This document shows, one piece after another, positions 1,909 through 29,478 of a stretch of 39,196 nt of DNA. The position numbers and the translations under genes are program-made. The stretch spans positions 146,722 through 185,917 of the forward strand of contig JAUWYX010000002.1 of NCBI GenBank assembly GCA_030615625.1, in the 5' to 3' direction. Position 1 is the first letter of the stretch. Every line of letters begins with the position of its first letter. Source of the DNA: Dehalococcoidia bacterium (lineage in GTDB: Bacteria; Chloroflexota; Dehalococcoidia; GIF9; AB-539-J10). The notes under the pieces were generated by a model, which was not told the origin of the DNA, searched no databases, and was given only the letters and a program-made list of their open reading frames with translations.

Positions 1909-2847
1909 ATGATCGTCACCATGTCCGTGCCAGTCCACGTGCCTGTTTTGCTTGATGAAGTTATAGCAGGGCTACAGGCTCAGCGAGGAGCTTACTTCGT
2001 TGACTGCACTGTTGGTCTGGGGGGGCACGCGGCAGCGATACTGAAAAAAATTTCACCCTCAGGAAGGCTTTTAGGCATTGATACTGATCCTGAAGCCATC
2101 AAAGTAAGTCAAGATAAACTTAGCGACTATGGCGAAGCAGTTACTTTGGTTAATGACAACTTTATTAACCTTGAGGCTATCTGCAGAAGATACCATTTTC
2201 ATCCAGTTGATGGTATTCTTTTCGACCTTGGTGTTTCTTCTCTGCAACTGGATACAGCCGAACGCGGCTTCAGCTTCCACCTCGATGCTCCCCTAAACAT
2301 GAGGTTCAATCCCGGGCAAGGGTTAACCGCATCGGATATCGTTAACAGCTTCTCTGAGCAAGAGTTGGCTAAGCTCATAGAAAAATACGGTGAAGAGCGT
2401 CACAGCCGGCGGATAGCGCGGTACGTCGTTCAAAATCGCCCTATCGCTACCACCGTGGAGCTTGCCCACCTGGTAGAGCAAGCTTCAGGCGGCAAGCGTG
2501 CCAAAATTCACCCTTCCACGAGAACCTTTATGGCTCTTCGCATCGCGGTCAACAGTGAACTACAGAATCTGGAGCTGGCTCTCAAACAAACTATTAACCT
2601 CCTTCGACCGGGGGGGAGATTAACAGTCATCAGTTATCATTCTCTGGAAGACCGTATAGTTAAACAATTCATGCGATACGCAGCCAGCAACTGCCTATGC
2701 CCCCCGGGAACAGTAATATGTCGCTGTGGGCATGTGCCCACCTTGAAGCTCATTTCACGGAAGGTTATTAAACCTACCTCGTTGGAGATAGAATCCAACC
2801 CACGCAGCCGTAGCGCCAAATTAAGGATAGCCGAGCGACTCAACTAG
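1909..2847 (+). CDS. rsmH: 16S rRNA (cytosine-1402-N4)-methyltransferase
   Basis: RsmH (MraW) methylates the N4 position of C1402 in 16S rRNA near the P site. The 312 residues show the SAM-binding segment VDCTVGLGGHAAAIL, the DGILFDLGVSSLQLD motif, KRAKIHPSTRTFMALRIAVN and the C-terminal ISYHSLEDRIVKQF. Two in-frame ATGs (1909 and 1921) are possible. The first is preferred because GGGAG ends about 8 bases upstream. It follows mraZ by 14 bases. Confidence 0.95.
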   Translation: MIVTMSVPVHVPVLLDEVIAGLQAQRGAYFVDCTVGLGGHAAAILKKISPSGRLLGIDTDPEAIKVSQDKLSDYGEAVTLVNDNFINLEAICRRYHFHPVDGILFDLGVSSLQLDTAERGFSFHLDAPLNMRFNPGQGLTASDIVNSFSEQELAKLIEKYGEERHSRRIARYVVQNRPIATTVELAHLVEQASGGKRAKIHPSTRTFMALRIAVNSELQNLELALKQTINLLRPGGRLTVISYHSLEDRIVKQFMRYAASNCLCPPGTVICRCGHVPTLKLISRKVIKPTSLEIESNPRSRSAKLRIAERLN

Positions 2848-2877
2848 GCAGCATCCTCATCAAAAAAGGAGGTGAAC

Positions 2878-4095
2878 ATGGCAAAGAAAATCATTTCAGC
2901 TATTGACGTGGGCACAACTAAAGTAGCCACCATCGTGGCTAATGTCAAGGCGGAAGACGACATTGAAGTTTTAGGAGTGGGAGTCGTTCCCTGTCGTGGC
3001 CTACATAAAGGCATCGTTGTCAATATGGATGAAGCCAGACAGTCCATTGCCGCATCAGTGAAGGAAGCTCAAAGAATTAGCGGCATACGTATAGATTCTG
3101 CCTATGTTGGGGTTACCGGCAGGCACATAAGCAGCCTGAATAATCGGGGGGTGGTAGCTATCCCCCGAGACGATCGATTAGTGCGTACTCAGGACCTTAA
3201 ACGGGTGCTATCTGCGGCTCGTAATATCACCGTCGCTGAGGGAAAGAAGGTGCTCCACGCCATTCCTCGCTCTTACGCCCTAGATGGACAGGAGGGAGTG
3301 AGACAGCCAGTAGGCATGCATGGGTCCAGGTTAGATGTAGAAACCCATATCGTCACTGCTTCAGTAACTTCGATACAAAACTTGGCCAAATGCATCCGCG
3401 GTGTCGGCGTTGATGTTGATGACCTCATCCTCGAGCCTCTGGCTAGTGGAGAAGCAACATTGACTCCGGAGGAAAGAGAATCAGGTGTTATCATGGCTGA
3501 CATCGGGGGCGGTACCACAGATATAGCGGTATTTAAGAATGGCAGCATCTATCACACCGGTATCCTTCCAGTAGCCGGTTACCAGGTAACCAGCGACATC
3601 TCCATAGGCTTGGGCCTGCCTTTTAATATTGCGGAAAAGATGAAGAAGAGATATGGCAATGTCACACCTACTTTAGATATGGACCAAATGGTCCAAGTGG
3701 GTATCGAGAATGGTCATAGCGCCTCTTATAAAGACCTATGCAGTATTATCCGGGCTCGAATGGAGGAGTTGCTACAACTCATATTGCTGGAGATGCCCAC
3801 CAGCGATTATCAGACCCTGGCGCCTTGTGGTTTAGTGCTCACCGGTGGCACATCCAATCTGTCCGGGCTTGACGAGTTAGGGCAGTCACTGTTGCGAATT
3901 CCGGTGCGCAAAGGCCGGCCTTTGAGTATGGGCATCTATGGCATTTCCGATATCCTGCATGATCCGTCTTATGCTACCACCCTGGGACTGATCCTATGGC
4001 AGGTGCGAGGCAAAGAAGGGTCAACTTATAGAGAAAAAAGGGCTGGTACTTGGAGCAGCTTTATAAGTCTCGTTAGAAAGCTGTTTCGTGCCTAA
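2878..4095 (+). CDS. ftsA: Cell division protein FtsA
   Basis: This is an actin-like ATPase that tethers FtsZ filaments to the membrane. It has the phosphate-1 loop SAIDVGTTKVATIVA at the N terminus, a 1C-like segment in the first third, the phosphate-2 motif ADIGGGTTDIAVF near residue 210 and an adenosine motif LTGGTSNLSGL. The last residues (WSSFISLVRKLFRA) look like the amphipathic membrane-targeting helix. The ATG at 2878 follows AGGAGGT at 2867-2873; an in-frame GTG at 2872 would lie inside that ribosome site. It is followed by ftsZ after 19 bases. No ftsL, ftsQ, ftsI or ftsW lies nearby. Confidence 0.92.
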   Translation: MAKKIISAIDVGTTKVATIVANVKAEDDIEVLGVGVVPCRGLHKGIVVNMDEARQSIAASVKEAQRISGIRIDSAYVGVTGRHISSLNNRGVVAIPRDDRLVRTQDLKRVLSAARNITVAEGKKVLHAIPRSYALDGQEGVRQPVGMHGSRLDVETHIVTASVTSIQNLAKCIRGVGVDVDDLILEPLASGEATLTPEERESGVIMADIGGGTTDIAVFKNGSIYHTGILPVAGYQVTSDISIGLGLPFNIAEKMKKRYGNVTPTLDMDQMVQVGIENGHSASYKDLCSIIRARMEELLQLILLEMPTSDYQTLAPCGLVLTGGTSNLSGLDELGQSLLRIPVRKGRPLSMGIYGISDILHDPSYATTLGLILWQVRGKEGSTYREKRAGTWSSFISLVRKLFRA

Positions 4096-23622: not shown

Positions 23623-24213
23623 CTAACCTTCAATAACCTCTTTTGTGCTGGGCACCCTGCCCAGGATTCGCTCGTCAATGCGGGTAGCTGTATCCAGGGC
23701 TCGGGCCAGGGCTTTGAATAAGGCTTCGGCTTTGTGGTGGTCGTTGATGCCGCTGAGCACTTTGGCGTGGAGGTTGACTTTGGCTTCGGAGGCAAGGGAG
23801 ACTAGAAAATGGCGGACTAAATCAGCGTCCAGGTCGCCTATGTTGGCTTCGTTAAAGTCTGCCTCGATTACACTGTAGACTCTGCCTCCAATATCCACAG
23901 CCACCGCTGCCAGAGCTTCATCCATAGGTACGATAGCATGGGCCATACGAACAATGCCTTGCTTTTCTCCCAGTGCCTGGTTAAAAGCCTTGCCCAGCGA
24001 AATAGCCACATCCTCCACTACGTGGTGCTGGTCGGGACCCGAGGCTGAGATTTTTATGTCGAATACTCCGTGCTGAGCTAGCTGGGTAAGGAGATGGTCG
24101 AACATTCTCATGCCGGTGGTGATTTGAAATTGTCCGCTGCCGTCAATGTTGAGCTCCACCCTGACATTCGTTTCGGCAGTCTCACGGGCAACTGTTGCTT
24201 TTCTTTCAGTCAT
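23623..24213 (-). CDS. hisB: Imidazoleglycerol-phosphate dehydratase
   Basis: HisB converts imidazole glycerol phosphate to imidazole acetol phosphate using manganese. The 196 residues form the monofunctional enzyme with metal-binding motifs MFDHLL (38-42), DQHHVVEDVA (61-70, with His63, His64, Glu67) and, in the second repeat half, NDHHKAEALFKALARAL. There is no fused phosphatase. It overlaps the end of hisC by 8 bases and is the last gene of the his operon. Confidence 0.97.
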   Translation of the reverse strand: MTERKATVARETAETNVRVELNIDGSGQFQITTGMRMFDHLLTQLAQHGVFDIKISASGPDQHHVVEDVAISLGKAFNQALGEKQGIVRMAHAIVPMDEALAAVAVDIGGRVYSVIEADFNEANIGDLDADLVRHFLVSLASEAKVNLHAKVLSGINDHHKAEALFKALARALDTATRIDERILGRVPSTKEVIEG

Positions 24214-25294
24214 ATTTAACCTCCTTTAATGCCTTAACCAGAGCATCAGTATCCTCAGGTCTGCCCACGCTAATTCGCAGGCAGTCTTTCAATCTAGGAG
24301 TATCAAAATGGCGAACAAAGATGCCCTTTTTTTGCAGTTGGCGCCAGATTTTTTTGGCCTTTCCGTCGGGCAGAGAACAGAGGATAAAGTTTCCCTGGGA
24401 GGGGTAAGGCCTTAGCCAATTCAGTTCCTTTAGTTTGCTAAATAATCGCTTCCGCTCCATAACTATCTTGGTAACATTAGCACGAAGATATTCTATATCT
24501 GCCAGGGAAGCTAGCACCGCAGCCTGAGCTGCGGCATTGGCGTTATAGGGCTGCTTAATCTTCATCAGGTAACCAGCAATTTCTACGGGGAAAAATCCGT
24601 AGCCTATCCTTAAGCCGGCTAGCCCGGCCCATTTGCTGAAGGTGCGTAAAACTATCAAGTTAGGGTAAGAGGGCACTAGGTTGGCCATGGTTACATTGCT
24701 GAATTCAAAATAGGCTTCGTCCACGACAACAATTTTTCCGGTCCCAACAAGCTCCATAATTTCCTTCTCGGTGGCGGTGTCGCCGGTGGGATTATTGGGC
24801 GAGGCAACAAAGATGGCCTTTGTTCTCCTGGTCAATGCCTTCTTCATACCGACCATATCAAGGGCAAAATCTTCAGCTCTAGGCACATCAACCACCCTGC
24901 CTCCACAAACATCGGTGCTAAAGGGGTACATACCGAATGTCGGTGGAAAATTGATAACTTCGTCTCCGGGTTTGAGGAAAAGCCTGAGGATAAGGTCGAT
25001 AAGTTCATCGCTGCCCATGCCGCAAACAATGTGCTGGCGGCCCAGGCCAGTATATTTCTCTAAAGCCTTCCGTAGCTCTCTTTGCTCCGGGTCGGGGTAA
25101 CTATGATAATAGGGATAAGTGGCTAGAGCTTGATAGACCTTTGGGGAACACCCATAAGGATTCTCGTTACCATCAAGCTTTATTACCTTATTCGAAGGCA
25201 ATTCAGCCCGTTGGCTCAAAACTTCTGTAGGCTCGATAGGGATGTAACCCTTCATGGTCACGAGCTCAGGCCTTATAAGTTTTTTTATGTCCAT
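24206..25294 (-). CDS. hisC: Histidinol-phosphate aminotransferase
   Basis: This is a PLP-dependent fold-type-I aminotransferase that makes histidinol phosphate from imidazole acetol phosphate and glutamate. Motifs are KLDGNENPYGCSPKV, ASPNNPTGD, VVDEAYFEF and TFSKWAGLAGLRIGYG with the PLP lysine. The reading frame extends 12 codons upstream, but ATG 25294 gives the family start MDIKKLIRPEL, so 362 residues. The extra upstream part lies in an AT-rich repeat. The ribosome site is weak. Confidence 0.95.
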   Translation of the reverse strand: MDIKKLIRPELVTMKGYIPIEPTEVLSQRAELPSNKVIKLDGNENPYGCSPKVYQALATYPYYHSYPDPEQRELRKALEKYTGLGRQHIVCGMGSDELIDLILRLFLKPGDEVINFPPTFGMYPFSTDVCGGRVVDVPRAEDFALDMVGMKKALTRRTKAIFVASPNNPTGDTATEKEIMELVGTGKIVVVDEAYFEFSNVTMANLVPSYPNLIVLRTFSKWAGLAGLRIGYGFFPVEIAGYLMKIKQPYNANAAAQAAVLASLADIEYLRANVTKIVMERKRLFSKLKELNWLRPYPSQGNFILCSLPDGKAKKIWRQLQKKGIFVRHFDTPRLKDCLRISVGRPEDTDALVKALKEVKYD

Positions 25295-25397
25295 TTCAAC
25301 TAAAACCAAAAACCAATAATAAGAAATCAAAGTGACAAGTCAAAATGCAAAACTTTTTATTTTTGCTCTGTATTTTTGCATTTTGCATTTTAATCTT
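25295..25397 (-). repeat. AT-rich repeat between hisD and hisC
   Basis: The spacer shares CAACTAAAACCAAA (next to the hisC start), CTCTGTATTTT (25366-25376) and GCATTTTAAT with the spacer before hisD. Inverted copies of AAAATGCAAAA-like words allow an imperfect fold. Read along the his transcript, it ends in GGTTTTAGTTGA just ahead of the start codon. Confidence 0.7.
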
Positions 25398-26720
25398 TTA
25401 TTTAGCTCTCGTCCTTCTTTCTATTGCCTGGGCGTGGGCATCGAGCCCTTCAGCTTTAGCTATTACCACAGCGGCCTGGCTCAGTTCTCGCATGGCGGGC
25501 TTGTCCAAGGCGATGATATTGGTAACCTTGAGGAAGTCCATAATACCCAGAGGAGAACCGAAACGAGCGCTGCCTCCGGTGGGCAATACATGGCTGGGAC
25601 CGGCAACATAATCGCCTAGAATGACAGGCGAATTCTCGCCTATGAAAATACAGCCGGCATTGCGAATTTTGGGGATTAAAGTTGAAGCGTCGGATGCCAT
25701 AATGGAGAGGTGCTCCGGAGCGAAGAGATTGACCAACTCCACTGCTTGGGCCATGTCATCGACAAGCACAAGCATTCCTGCATCAACAGCCGTTCCAGCA
25801 GTGGAGCGCCGCTTTAATTTTCCCAGTTGTATCTCAATTTCCTTGTCTACCTGGTCAGCCAGGTCAGCCGAAGTGGTGATTAAAATTACTGAAGCCAGGG
25901 GGTCATGTTCAGCCTGGGCCAGGAGGTCGGCGGCACAAAGGCTGGGATCGGCTTTCTCATCGGCTACAATTACTATCTCGCTGGGACCCTTGAGACCATC
26001 GAGGTCCACTGTGCCATAAACCATTTTCTTAGCCAGGGTCACGAAGATGTTCCCCGGACCGCAAATCTTATCCACTCTGGGTATCGATTCAGTACCAAAA
26101 ACCAATGCAGCAATAGCTTGAGCGCCGCCAAGTTTAAAAATGCGGTTGACCTTGGCAATGTCGGCAGCTACCAACGTGGGTGCAGGAATCCTGCCATCCT
26201 TAGCAGGCGGTGAAACCATAACGATTTCCCCAACACCGGCCACTTTGGCTGGTATGGCCATCATCAGCACTGTGGATGGATAGGCAGCGGTGCCACCAGG
26301 CACATATAGGCCAACCCTTTGTAAGGGCAGAACCTGTTGCCTTAAGTGCTTATCGATGGGGATTAGGCCGACTTTGTGTCCACAGGCAAGATGGAAGTCC
26401 CGTATTCTTCTGGCTGCGAACTCAAGGGCCGAGACAAGTTTCTTGTCTATCGTGTCATAAGCGGCAACAACTTCCTGTCTGTCTACTTCCAGGGAATCCA
26501 GTCGGACTCCATCCAATTTTTCGGTGTAATCAAAGAGGGCTTTATCACCTTTGTCCCGAACCTCACCGATGACACGGTCGACCACTTCTTGAACTGAAAG
26601 CTCTTCGCCAAAGACTTGCTTTATTTGAACTCCTAGTCCCGGTGGCGTGGTGAAATGCTCCCAGAAATTTTCCCTGGTCAGTAATTGGCTTGCCTTATTA
26701 AATCCTTTGACTTTTTTCAC
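25398..26720 (-). CDS. hisD: Histidinol dehydrogenase
   Basis: HisD is a zinc enzyme that oxidises histidinol to histidine in two NAD-dependent steps. Motifs are [53 protein letters not shown] (zinc ligands), FAPEHLSI (catalytic Glu-His) and [15 protein letters not shown]. The frame opens with TTG at 26735; the GTG at 26720 is preferred because the five codons before it belong to the AT-rich repeat. That gives 440 residues. Confidence 0.95.
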
Positions 26721-26806
26721 GTCAACTAAAACCAAAAGTCAAAAATTAAAATGTAAATTTTTTATTTTTCCTCTGTATTTTCGATTTTTGCATTTTAATT
26801 TTTTAT
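26721..26806 (-). repeat. AT-rich repeat between hisG and hisD
   Basis: This is the same module as at 25295-25397: CAACTAAAACCAAA beside the start codon, CTCTGTATTTT at 26771-26781, GCATTTTAAT near the far end. AAAAATTAAAATG and CATTTTAATTTTT are inverted copies near its two sides, so the RNA can fold into a long AT-rich hairpin. Confidence 0.7.
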
Positions 26807-28237
26807 CTACTTTAGCCCCGCTCGCAATTTCTGTGTAAGAAACTCCATTTTCTCTTTTTTATCGGAAGATGCAAGACTATCTTTGTTCGCAATTAGACAA
26901 GCCGAAGACCGGAGGAGCACATCAATAATCTTTAATTTGTGCTTCTTGAGGGTCTTCCCTGTCTGGACATTATCAATAAGCATATCGGCATCCTCGGGTA
27001 AAAAAGCCTCGCTCGCCCCCCAGGTTGGAATTAGCTTGTATGGGTTAATGTGATTGTCCCGAAGATACCTGTCGGCAATATCTATGTACTCCGAGGCTAC
27101 TTTTAGAGGAGCGAACTTGTTGCTCTGAACAAGTGACCTCAATTCATCAATGTCGGCCACAGGCATTTCCTGGCTCACGGCAGCGACAATTTTGACGGTG
27201 CCAAAGCCGAGAGCAAACAATTTCTTTACCGGGCTTGAGGGGAAGCGATAGAGGTGTTCCAGCAGCCAATCCTCACCGGTTATGGCTAAGTCGAAATTGC
27301 TATTAGCCACTTGCAGAGGCATATCCTGGGGCCTGATTACTTTAATGCCAAGCCAGTCTAAATCAGCGGAGGGTCGGCGGCTCACTACCTCTTCAGAATA
27401 CCCCTGGAGTGCCAGCCCGGCTCGCTTCAAAAACTGCGCAGTAGGTGCTTGCTGATGTCCATCAGGTAAAGCCAGGTTGATTTCCTTTGCCGGCCACAAG
27501 GGACGAGACCCCTTTAGTTCCTCAGAGATGTCAAGCCCATTTTCTATTGATGTCTGCGGCTCAGCGGTAAGCTTGGAGCTAAAACACATCAATATCTGGC
27601 TCAAATCCTTGTTCTCCAGGCTTTCTCGATTGGCTATTAGAAAGGCAGTAACGGGGAGTAATCTTTCGAGAGGAATTAAGCCTTGAGTTGCTATATGCGC
27701 TCCACTCTTTCCCCAGAGCACCGCCAGGTCAGCATTTTCCGGGGGATAAGCTTCAGCAGCTCCCCACACCGGGAAAATCCTGAACCTTCTCATCCTGAGA
27801 TTTAAGGCAAAAGCCTCAGCCAGATTAGGATACTCACTTACTATACGATAATCATTGCTCCCGGCTGATAACTCATTGAGATTAGCTATCCCCACTTCAG
27901 CACTGGCAACCACGTGTATACTGCCTTCACCATAATTTAGACTCGATATTTTTACCAGAGCTCCTGCTGGATATTTCACCAGGAATTCTTCAATCCAATC
28001 CAAACCACAAATACCCAGGTCGTAATTCCCTACGGCCACCTGTATGGAAATATCTTTTTCTTGAAGTATTTTAGCGGAAAGACTGGGAAACCTTGCCGAG
28101 CGAAGGCGATATTGCTTTGTTTTATCACTATAATCCTGGAATCCCAGGCCTATCCCGGCAAGCAAGCTAGCTGTAGGCGATAGAAACCTGCCTTTGGGGA
28201 GGGCGAGTTTTATGTAGCCGGCTTGGTAGTCCTTCAT
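26807..28237 (-). CDS. hisG: ATP phosphoribosyltransferase, tandem double-domain HisG
   Basis: HisG joins ATP and PRPP, the committed step of histidine synthesis. This 476-residue protein contains two short-form HisG domains in tandem: residues 9-223 and 253-471. Equivalent landmarks are IKLALPKGR (9-17) and INLALPDGH (253-261), and FPVWGAAEAYPPENADL and IPTWGASEAFLPEDADM, then FLIANRESL and CLIANKDSL. The first copy keeps the N-terminal LPKGR but has SGAHI (178-182) where the PRPP loop belongs. The second lacks KGR but keeps TGKTL (426-430). Short-form HisG needs HisZ, which lies directly upstream with a 4-base overlap. Confidence 0.88.
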   Translation of the reverse strand: MKDYQAGYIKLALPKGRFLSPTASLLAGIGLGFQDYSDKTKQYRLRSARFPSLSAKILQEKDISIQVAVGNYDLGICGLDWIEEFLVKYPAGALVKISSLNYGEGSIHVVASAEVGIANLNELSAGSNDYRIVSEYPNLAEAFALNLRMRRFRIFPVWGAAEAYPPENADLAVLWGKSGAHIATQGLIPLERLLPVTAFLIANRESLENKDLSQILMCFSSKLTAEPQTSIENGLDISEELKGSRPLWPAKEINLALPDGHQQAPTAQFLKRAGLALQGYSEEVVSRRPSADLDWLGIKVIRPQDMPLQVANSNFDLAITGEDWLLEHLYRFPSSPVKKLFALGFGTVKIVAAVSQEMPVADIDELRSLVQSNKFAPLKVASEYIDIADRYLRDNHINPYKLIPTWGASEAFLPEDADMLIDNVQTGKTLKKHKLKIIDVLLRSSACLIANKDSLASSDKKEKMEFLTQKLRAGLK

Positions 28238-29478
28238 CCCTCACTTACCACTTTAAGAATCTCTGCCATAGAAGCGGCTTCTCGCCGTCGCCTTTGTATA
28301 CAATCCGTGAGCACAAACGGAGAGGGCTCCTTTCCAGAAACCAGGACGACCCACCTATAATTAGATTCTTCTCGACCTATGAAGTCAAGCTCTGCTGGGT
28401 ATCCGGCGTCACGAAGCGATTCCGCCACAGTAAAGCACATCTTTACTATTTTCGGAGCCAATTCCTTACCTTTAACCAGGATTCCACATTCGCCCTTTTG
28501 CTCTTCCTCCAGCGGAAGCAATTTCATTATAGGGTCCACATATAAGGCAAATCCGCAGGCGGGGATGTCCTCTCCATTCATAAGAGGCACAAGGTTATCA
28601 TATCTTCCTCCGCCACCTATTTTTTCCCCAGCAGCCAGGAACTGAAAACAGATTCCAGTATAGTACTCAAAACCATGTATCGCTGCGATATCAATTTTAT
28701 AGCTGCAACCCAGGTTATCCAGTAATGTGGCGATGTTGATGAGGTCCTCCAGGCTGGACTTGAAGTCCTGTGAAGCTTTGGGGAATGAAGTTCTTACATT
28801 GTGTAGAAAGCTGCTCGATTTTCCCTTGAGGCCCAATAACGAAGCCATGAGCTTGTCGATTTCGGGGGTAGTGGATTTCGCCTTGGTCAATGCTTGCCAA
28901 TTTCCTTCCAAAATGCGGTTTGTCATCTTAGCTTCCTCACCGGGACTGAGCTTAAACTCTTTGAGCAAGGCCTTCACCAAGCCAGCATGGGACAATTGCA
29001 GTGCAATGTTGCTGAGACCAAGTCTGCGGATAACCTCTTTAGCCAGCAGGATTATCTCCACATCCGGAGCAGATTTGGCACCACCGAAAAACTCAGCACC
29101 ACATTGCCATCGCTCCCTGTTCTCTTTCCCGGTTCCCTCAAAAGCGAAGATATTAGTCACATAGAAAAGCCTGGCTAATTCTTGTCCACTTAGATTGTCG
29201 ATGTAGAGTCTGGCTACAGGAATAGTGCCATCTGGCCTCAAGACGACCCGCTCACCACTCCAGCCATCCCAATCGAGAAAGGAATATACCTTGCTTAACA
29301 TGCTCGGGGTGAGTGTTCCCGTAGCTGTAAACAAATAGAGGTATTCTAAGGTTGGCGTCCTCACCTCCTGGTAGCCCCAGTTACGACAACAAGTCCGGAA
29401 GACATCTTCAATACGGCGAAAGCGTAACATGTCCTCGGGGAGCAAATCCTGCATTCCCTTACATTTCTGGTTTTTCAT
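28234..29478 (-). CDS. hisZ: HisZ, regulatory subunit of ATP phosphoribosyltransferase
   Basis: HisZ is a catalytically inactive paralogue of histidyl-tRNA synthetase that assembles with short HisG. The 414 residues begin KCKGMQDLLPEDM as in the HisS/HisZ fold. They keep motif-2-like VVLRPDGTIPVARLY and a class-II core, but the tRNA-synthetase motif 2 loop (normally YERPQKGR) is replaced by FEGTGKENRERW. The C-terminal part is a reduced anticodon-like domain. Position next to hisG supports HisZ rather than HisS. It is the first gene of the his operon. Confidence 0.88.
   Translation of the reverse strand: MKNQKCKGMQDLLPEDMLRFRRIEDVFRTCCRNWGYQEVRTPTLEYLYLFTATGTLTPSMLSKVYSFLDWDGWSGERVVLRPDGTIPVARLYIDNLSGQELARLFYVTNIFAFEGTGKENRERWQCGAEFFGGAKSAPDVEIILLAKEVIRRLGLSNIALQLSHAGLVKALLKEFKLSPGEEAKMTNRILEGNWQALTKAKSTTPEIDKLMASLLGLKGKSSSFLHNVRTSFPKASQDFKSSLEDLINIATLLDNLGCSYKIDIAAIHGFEYYTGICFQFLAAGEKIGGGGRYDNLVPLMNGEDIPACGFALYVDPIMKLLPLEEEQKGECGILVKGKELAPKIVKMCFTVAESLRDAGYPAELDFIGREESNYRWVVLVSGKEPSPFVLTDCIQRRRREAASMAEILKVVSEG

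Follow-up and report, generated by a model that had tools for sequence, protein, structure and literature searches.

A tandem HisG of Dehalococcoidia as a probable one-site pseudo-dimer of the HisZ-dependent ATP phosphoribosyltransferase

How does a HisG protein work when one chain carries two HisG domains, and the PRPP-binding loop of the family is present only in the second of them? The question is raised by a gene in the stretch of DNA analysed here (39,196 nucleotides of contig JAUWYX010000002.1 from the Dehalococcoidia bacterium assembly GCA_030615625.1, hereafter the window). The gene is a 476-codon reading frame on the minus strand at 26807-28237, with an ATG start and a TAG stop, as seen from the frame and its translation. 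Pfam PF01634 (HisG, E 2e-62) and NCBIfam TIGR00070 (E 3.5e-70) each match two stretches of it in tandem. The first-pass annotation, made from the sequence alone, had read two full HisG domains in this chain and quoted LPKGR and SGAHI from the first and LPDGH and TGKTL from the second; the profile matches bear out the domains, and the motifs are correct. Both halves share the sequence family and the fold of HisG. A C-terminal regulatory domain is absent, as the Pfam matches are HisG stretches only and reach near the C-terminus. We compared the protein with 106 distinct tandems (31 family-level groups of Dehalococcoidia) and 52 usable single-domain HisGs. Domain 1 (D1) is proposed to be the partner half and domain 2 (D2) the catalytic half. 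The features of the gene are as follows.

26807..28237, minus strand: tandem hisG gene, 476 aa with two HisG domains (ORF, Pfam, NCBIfam)
27569..28216, minus strand: D1, residues ~8-223, HisG fold without the PRPP loop (profile and structure match)
28187..28201, minus strand: LPKGR motif of D1, residues 13-17, which varies in a deep subclade
28115..28117, minus strand: Lys41 of D1, at the position of Arg56 of P. arcticus HisGS (sequence alignment)
27692..27718, minus strand: degenerate PRPP-loop position of D1, LWGKSGAHI, residues 174-182 (loop in 0/106 D1)
27485..27568, minus strand: linker between D1 and D2, residues 224-251, largely predicted to be disordered (pLDDT <50 at 227-244)
26825..27484, minus strand: D2, residues ~252-471, HisG fold with the substrate-binding residues (profile and structure match)
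27455..27469, minus strand: LPDGH motif of D2, residues 257-261, nearly invariant in the 106 tandems
27371..27379, minus strand: Arg-Arg-Pro of D2, residues 287-289, at or near the Arg56 position depending on the alignment
27332..27334, minus strand: Arg302 of D2, equivalent of Arg73 (contact with the ATP gamma-phosphate), Arg in 106/106 D2
26948..26974, minus strand: PRPP loop of D2, DNVQTGKTL, residues 422-430 (pattern in 106/106 D2)

The short form of HisG is a single domain of ~200-230 aa that forms a symmetric homodimer. The window protein has 476 aa and two unequal domains, and thus counts as a variant of the short-form type. The HisZ partner of the short form is encoded next door, as the first-pass annotation had stated, and the order downstream of hisG is hisD, hisC and a putative hisB.

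28234..29478, minus strand: hisZ, regulatory subunit gene, directly upstream of hisG with a 4-base overlap with its start
25398..26735, minus strand: hisD, histidinol dehydrogenase (TIGR00069, 507 bits)
24206..25330, minus strand: hisC, histidinol-phosphate transaminase (TIGR01141, 345 bits)
23623..24213, minus strand: ORF read as hisB, imidazoleglycerol-phosphate dehydratase (assigned by eye)

The window HisZ scores under the curated cut-offs of both the hisS and the hisZ models (217/286.75 and 214/271.65 bits, respectively), and a true histidyl-tRNA synthetase, with 477 bits for hisS, is encoded on another contig; HisZ is a HisRS-like protein distinct from the latter. A hisZ homologue adjoins hisG on the same strand in 105/106 tandem loci, and at the sole exception the contig extends merely 38 bases upstream. 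The HisZ proteins beside the tandems retain the HisRS-type motifs FEYYTG and GGGRYD, which makes histidine sensing by them plausible. The source genome (1.62 Mb, 97% complete) also encodes hisF and hisD, and a search for the separate hisG that the first-pass annotation had thought worth looking for found no second HisG elsewhere in it. As the only HisG of a genome with hisF and hisD, the tandem most simply performs the HisG step, and we infer that it catalyses PRPP + ATP -> PR-ATP in its host. Two RNA elements were also found in the window, a PyrR binding site (RF00515, 5447-5559, plus strand, above the gathering score), a leader expected for pyrimidine genes, and a DUF3800-VII RNA motif (RF02967, 18709-18797, minus strand, 42.8 bits vs a cut-off of 36.2).

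Most of the Dehalococcoidia sampled share the tandem arrangement. At the order level 60 genomes, ranging from genus to order, were surveyed and HisG was found in 46. Two HisG matches occur in 43 of these; the remaining three have one match each, cut off at contig ends, so that the tandem is present in every order-level relative whose match is complete (43 of 43). The three cut-off matches had been candidates for a single-domain HisG in close relatives and were rejected on this ground. Complete single-domain HisGs at this place in close relatives, named in the first-pass annotation as the finding that would speak against its reading, were not seen in this survey. An even sample of the class has HisG in 114/118 genomes, 77 of them with at least two matches and 37 with one (hand count from the table). 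Within the sample of the phylum Chloroflexota the tandem is seen in the class Dehalococcoidia only; outside Chloroflexota the genome search covered 14 named controls. Open frames of 600-956 aa at GC-rich loci, which looked like HisZ-HisG-HisG fusions, have no in-frame HisZ match and were discarded as read-through ahead of the true start.

A tree of 68 domains places all D1 in one clade (SH-aLRT 99), all D2 in another (96), and all single-domain HisGs in a third group (99). Since D1 and D2 are each monophyletic, a single duplication is indicated, and the same main subdivision is seen within both clades. The tree fits one ancient duplication and fusion, after which D1 changed at the higher rate.

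Three observations on individual genomes belong here. At one locus (L194, contig 322 of G088, about 2327-3693) D1 and D2 follow hisZ as separate overlapping frames of 232 aa, where D2 could begin at GTG. The locus nests within the fused clade, which makes it either a later fission or an indel from sequencing; a real split would show the halves at work as two subunits. The genome G147 (L116, L198) has a tandem hisG with hisZ and, on a different contig, a single hisG unrelated to the tandem, and some relatives of the same family have only the single-type hisG, so one hisG type may be in the process of replacing the other in this family. Six genomes of the same genus as the source genome (G004, G006, G009, G013, G014 and G018, 90-95% complete) are without hisG and hisD, and, except for G006, without hisF above the cut-off. 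Next to sister species that have the his genes, these six appear to be histidine auxotrophs.

What does each half retain? With positions numbered as in P. arcticus HisGS, the pattern of the PRPP loop is found in 106/106 D2, in 0/106 D1 and in 51/52 single-domain HisGs. Arg73, which in P. arcticus contacts the ATP gamma-phosphate (PMC10795190), is Arg in 106/106 D2 and in 19/106 D1, 17 of the 19 belonging to the deep GC-rich subclade. As judged from these alignments, the PRPP loop of D1 is lost everywhere, and its Arg73 appears to have been lost later or not at all. Arg56 of P. arcticus HisGS extends into the site of the other subunit, where it bridges to the pyrophosphate of PRPP (PMC9734150). 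Its position in D1 is filled by Arg in 95 of the 106 tandems and by Lys in 11, including Lys41 of the window protein. The results for D1, the PRPP loop and Arg73 are the same under three alignment modes. For D2 the Arg56 position is less firm. With D1 included in the alignment, D2 shows Leu, Gly or Val there and the Arg-Arg-Pro stands 2-3 residues further on; with D1 excluded, the Arg-Arg of D2 lands on Arg56/Lys57, and the Arg56 of the single-domain proteins leaves the column. Hence the loss of Arg56 from D2 depends on the alignment and is not certain, and a perfect swap of Arg56 between D1 and D2, considered as a candidate, is weakened. Glu98 is invariant in single-domain HisGs and in D1 and mostly Asp in D2, and Arg at position 185, present in 92% of single-domain HisGs, is gone from both halves. 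Among the residues that are invariant or nearly so in the tandems and atypical of single HisGs are Y72 and R148 of D1 and H261 and R287-R288-P289 of D2 (window numbering).

The first-pass annotation had described complementary losses in the two halves and suggested one composite site or an active/regulatory pair. The complementary conservation in 106 tandems, all of the same layout when the motifs are compared by half and thus far from a chance occurrence, points to one composite site or an active/inactive pair and not to a redundant duplication. The asymmetry is firm for the PRPP loop, for the Arg73 equivalent and for the Arg or Lys of D1 at the Arg56 position; it fails for the N-terminal motif, where LPDGH is a fixed variant and LPKGR is not the complementing element.

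The two halves are also predicted to have a fixed mutual position. The AlphaFold2 model of the window protein, built with 97 tandems, has pLDDT 90.3 and pTM 0.88 and is poor in the linker and at the N-terminus only, and that of a deep-subclade tandem ~39% identical to it has pLDDT 92.2 and pTM 0.88. Halves without a fixed mutual position should score much lower in pTM, so these values indicate a defined packing, and D1 and D2 are predicted to pack firmly in a defined way. In a comparison with single chains residues 3-227 (D1) match B. subtilis HisG 2vd2 (Z 20.5) and residues 249-476 (D2) match P. arcticus HisGS 5m8h (Z 18.5); D2 matches short- and long-form HisGs alike with Z about 19. The packing of D1 against D2 would be that of the known HisG dimer.

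We suggest that the tandem is probably a HisZ-dependent short-form ATP phosphoribosyltransferase in which the HisG pair has become an intramolecular pseudo-dimer, where D2 houses the single active site and D1 completes it. The HisG homodimer would have been turned into one chain when its gene was duplicated and fused, once and long ago, and the halves would pack as a pseudo-dimer. D2 alone would bind PRPP and ATP and perform the chemistry. D1, with its PRPP site gone, would lend D2 the crossing Arg (or Lys) that reaches the leaving pyrophosphate. It would also complete the platform on which HisZ is expected to dock, and HisZ would activate the enzyme and exert feedback control by histidine, as it does in other enzymes of the short form.

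The one-site pseudo-dimer is suggested by the PRPP loop being in D2 only, by Arg73 being kept in all D2 and mostly lost in D1, by Arg or Lys in every D1 at a position known to cross the dimer, and by the equal pTM of two divergent tandems. Both halves have the HisG fold, D1 and D2 are each one clade, and D1 is not decaying, as it has invariant residues of its own (Y72, E84 and R148 in the window protein). The separate D1 and D2 frames of L194 are what is expected of paired subunits, and a sole HisG with a conserved adjacent hisZ counts for a working, HisZ-linked pair. Four points weigh against it. The window protein has Lys41 instead of Arg, and the R56K exchange is costly in P. arcticus (about 24-fold, partly restored by HisZ, as compared with 42-fold for R56A, both published). 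The Arg-Arg-Pro of D2 may occupy the Arg56 column, the Arg of position 185 is missing from both halves, and the L194 split, seen in a single draft genome, may be due to a sequencing indel.

Alternatively, D1 could be chiefly regulatory. Its emptied pocket would then bind another ligand, such as AMP, ADP or histidine, or D1 would be an adaptor for HisZ docking; the fusion would serve control, and D2 would be an ordinary HisG, perhaps forming D2-D2 dimers between chains. In D1, Y86, R150 and C91 (P. arcticus numbering) are conserved at 96-100% and are not found in single HisGs. These residues point to a selected role of D1, which a regulatory domain would explain; the Arg-Arg-Pro of D2 could likewise serve a D2-D2 dimer. 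However, regulation is already supplied by the linked HisZ with its histidine-binding-type motifs, a crossing Arg or Lys in every D1 is unneeded for pure regulation, and the pTM favours firm packing of D1 against D2. We therefore regard a chiefly regulatory D1 as unlikely.

Still less probable is a composite site of the kind first proposed for this gene, with LPKGR given by D1 and the PRPP loop by D2. PKGR is present in D1 of 60/106 tandems, the window protein included, D2 has the DGH variant, and the motif Arg matters in P. arcticus, where R32A costs 25-fold (published). In the deep subclade of 21 members, however, D1 has LPTGD-type motifs in place of LPKGR with the layout unchanged, which led us to reject LPKGR as the complementing element for the whole clade. 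The motif Arg is present in merely ~19% of the single-domain HisGs sampled. The D2 motif is DGH in 105/106 tandems and NGH in one (D 99%, G 100%, H 100%); being nearly invariant, LPDGH has been changed and fixed, not lost, and is presumably functional itself.

That both halves are independently active HisGs and the fusion doubles the dose is very improbable, as the HisG fold is present in both but the PRPP loop in no D1. An assembly artefact, or a recent or decaying duplication, is rejected, given that D1 and D2 of the window protein share 33% protein identity (BLASTP 1e-40) and no meaningful DNA similarity (one 14-base match at E 0.5, a chance hit, and not the near-identical halves that the first-pass annotation had named as a sign of artefact), and that the same layout recurs in 106 proteins of 31 family-level groups, several of them from complete single-contig genomes of 1.4-1.9 Mb.

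Returning to the one-site pseudo-dimer, what is usually a symmetric pair appears to have been turned into an asymmetric pair with one site. On balance we lean towards a naturally asymmetric enzyme present in most sampled Dehalococcoidia families, in which a catalytic half works with a trans-acting PRPP-free half, the complex with HisZ has half the usual number of sites, and the D1 pocket may bind a regulatory ligand. Two tandems make four HisG domains, and with four HisZ they could form a complex like the known octamer in which the number of active sites is halved. The stoichiometry with HisZ, expected from the first reading to differ from the usual one, could thus be unchanged when counted by domains, and the number of chains alone would be altered.

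The HisGS-HisZ enzyme is a model system for the control of catalysis by a distant regulatory subunit, which acts via an arginine reaching across the HisG dimer. In the tandem, as a natural variant, the donor of this residue and the substrate site would be in different domains, where each can be mutated alone, which is impossible in a symmetric homodimer. In addition, hisG joins the his genes with a history of duplication and fusion, and tandem hisG is a lineage marker for most Dehalococcoidia. A review of gene elongation covers hisA, hisF, hisB and hisD, and fusions of hisD, B, N, I, E, F and H, with hisG in neither group (PMC7284861), and hisG is likewise unmentioned in a gene-fusion survey of 2007 (PMC1963479). 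In the open-licence literature we found no description of a tandem HisG and no paper joining ATP phosphoribosyltransferase with Dehalococcoid. The tandem is a genuine and conserved variant of the short-form enzyme, apparently undescribed so far, with a function predicted from sequence.

The closest system for comparison is the short-form HisGS-HisZ (P. arcticus 5m8h, A. baumannii 8oy0, L. lactis 1z7m, T. maritima 1usy). The tandem shares with it the HisG fold, the lack of a C-terminal regulatory domain and the adjacent hisZ, as well as the PRPP loop and the ATP-contacting Arg, here in D2, and the filled crossing-Arg position, here in D1. However, short-form HisGS has identical subunits and two equal sites per dimer, while the tandem has diverged fused domains and one PRPP loop. 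Long-form HisG (E. coli 1h3d, C. jejuni 4yb6) has a catalytic core homologous to that of the tandem. Unlike the tandem, with its second HisG core and HisZ, it combines one core with a C-terminal regulatory domain and works without HisZ. The elongation of hisA, hisF, hisB and hisD (PMC7284861) is an event of the same kind, duplication, fusion and divergence within one his gene; tandem hisG differs from these in being restricted to a class and in having one module without the substrate loop. A dead paralogue paired with an active copy is also known from trypanosomatid AdoMetDC/prozyme (PMC5201418). This is an analogy only: that enzyme is unrelated, its two copies are separate chains, and activation proceeds via relief of autoinhibition.
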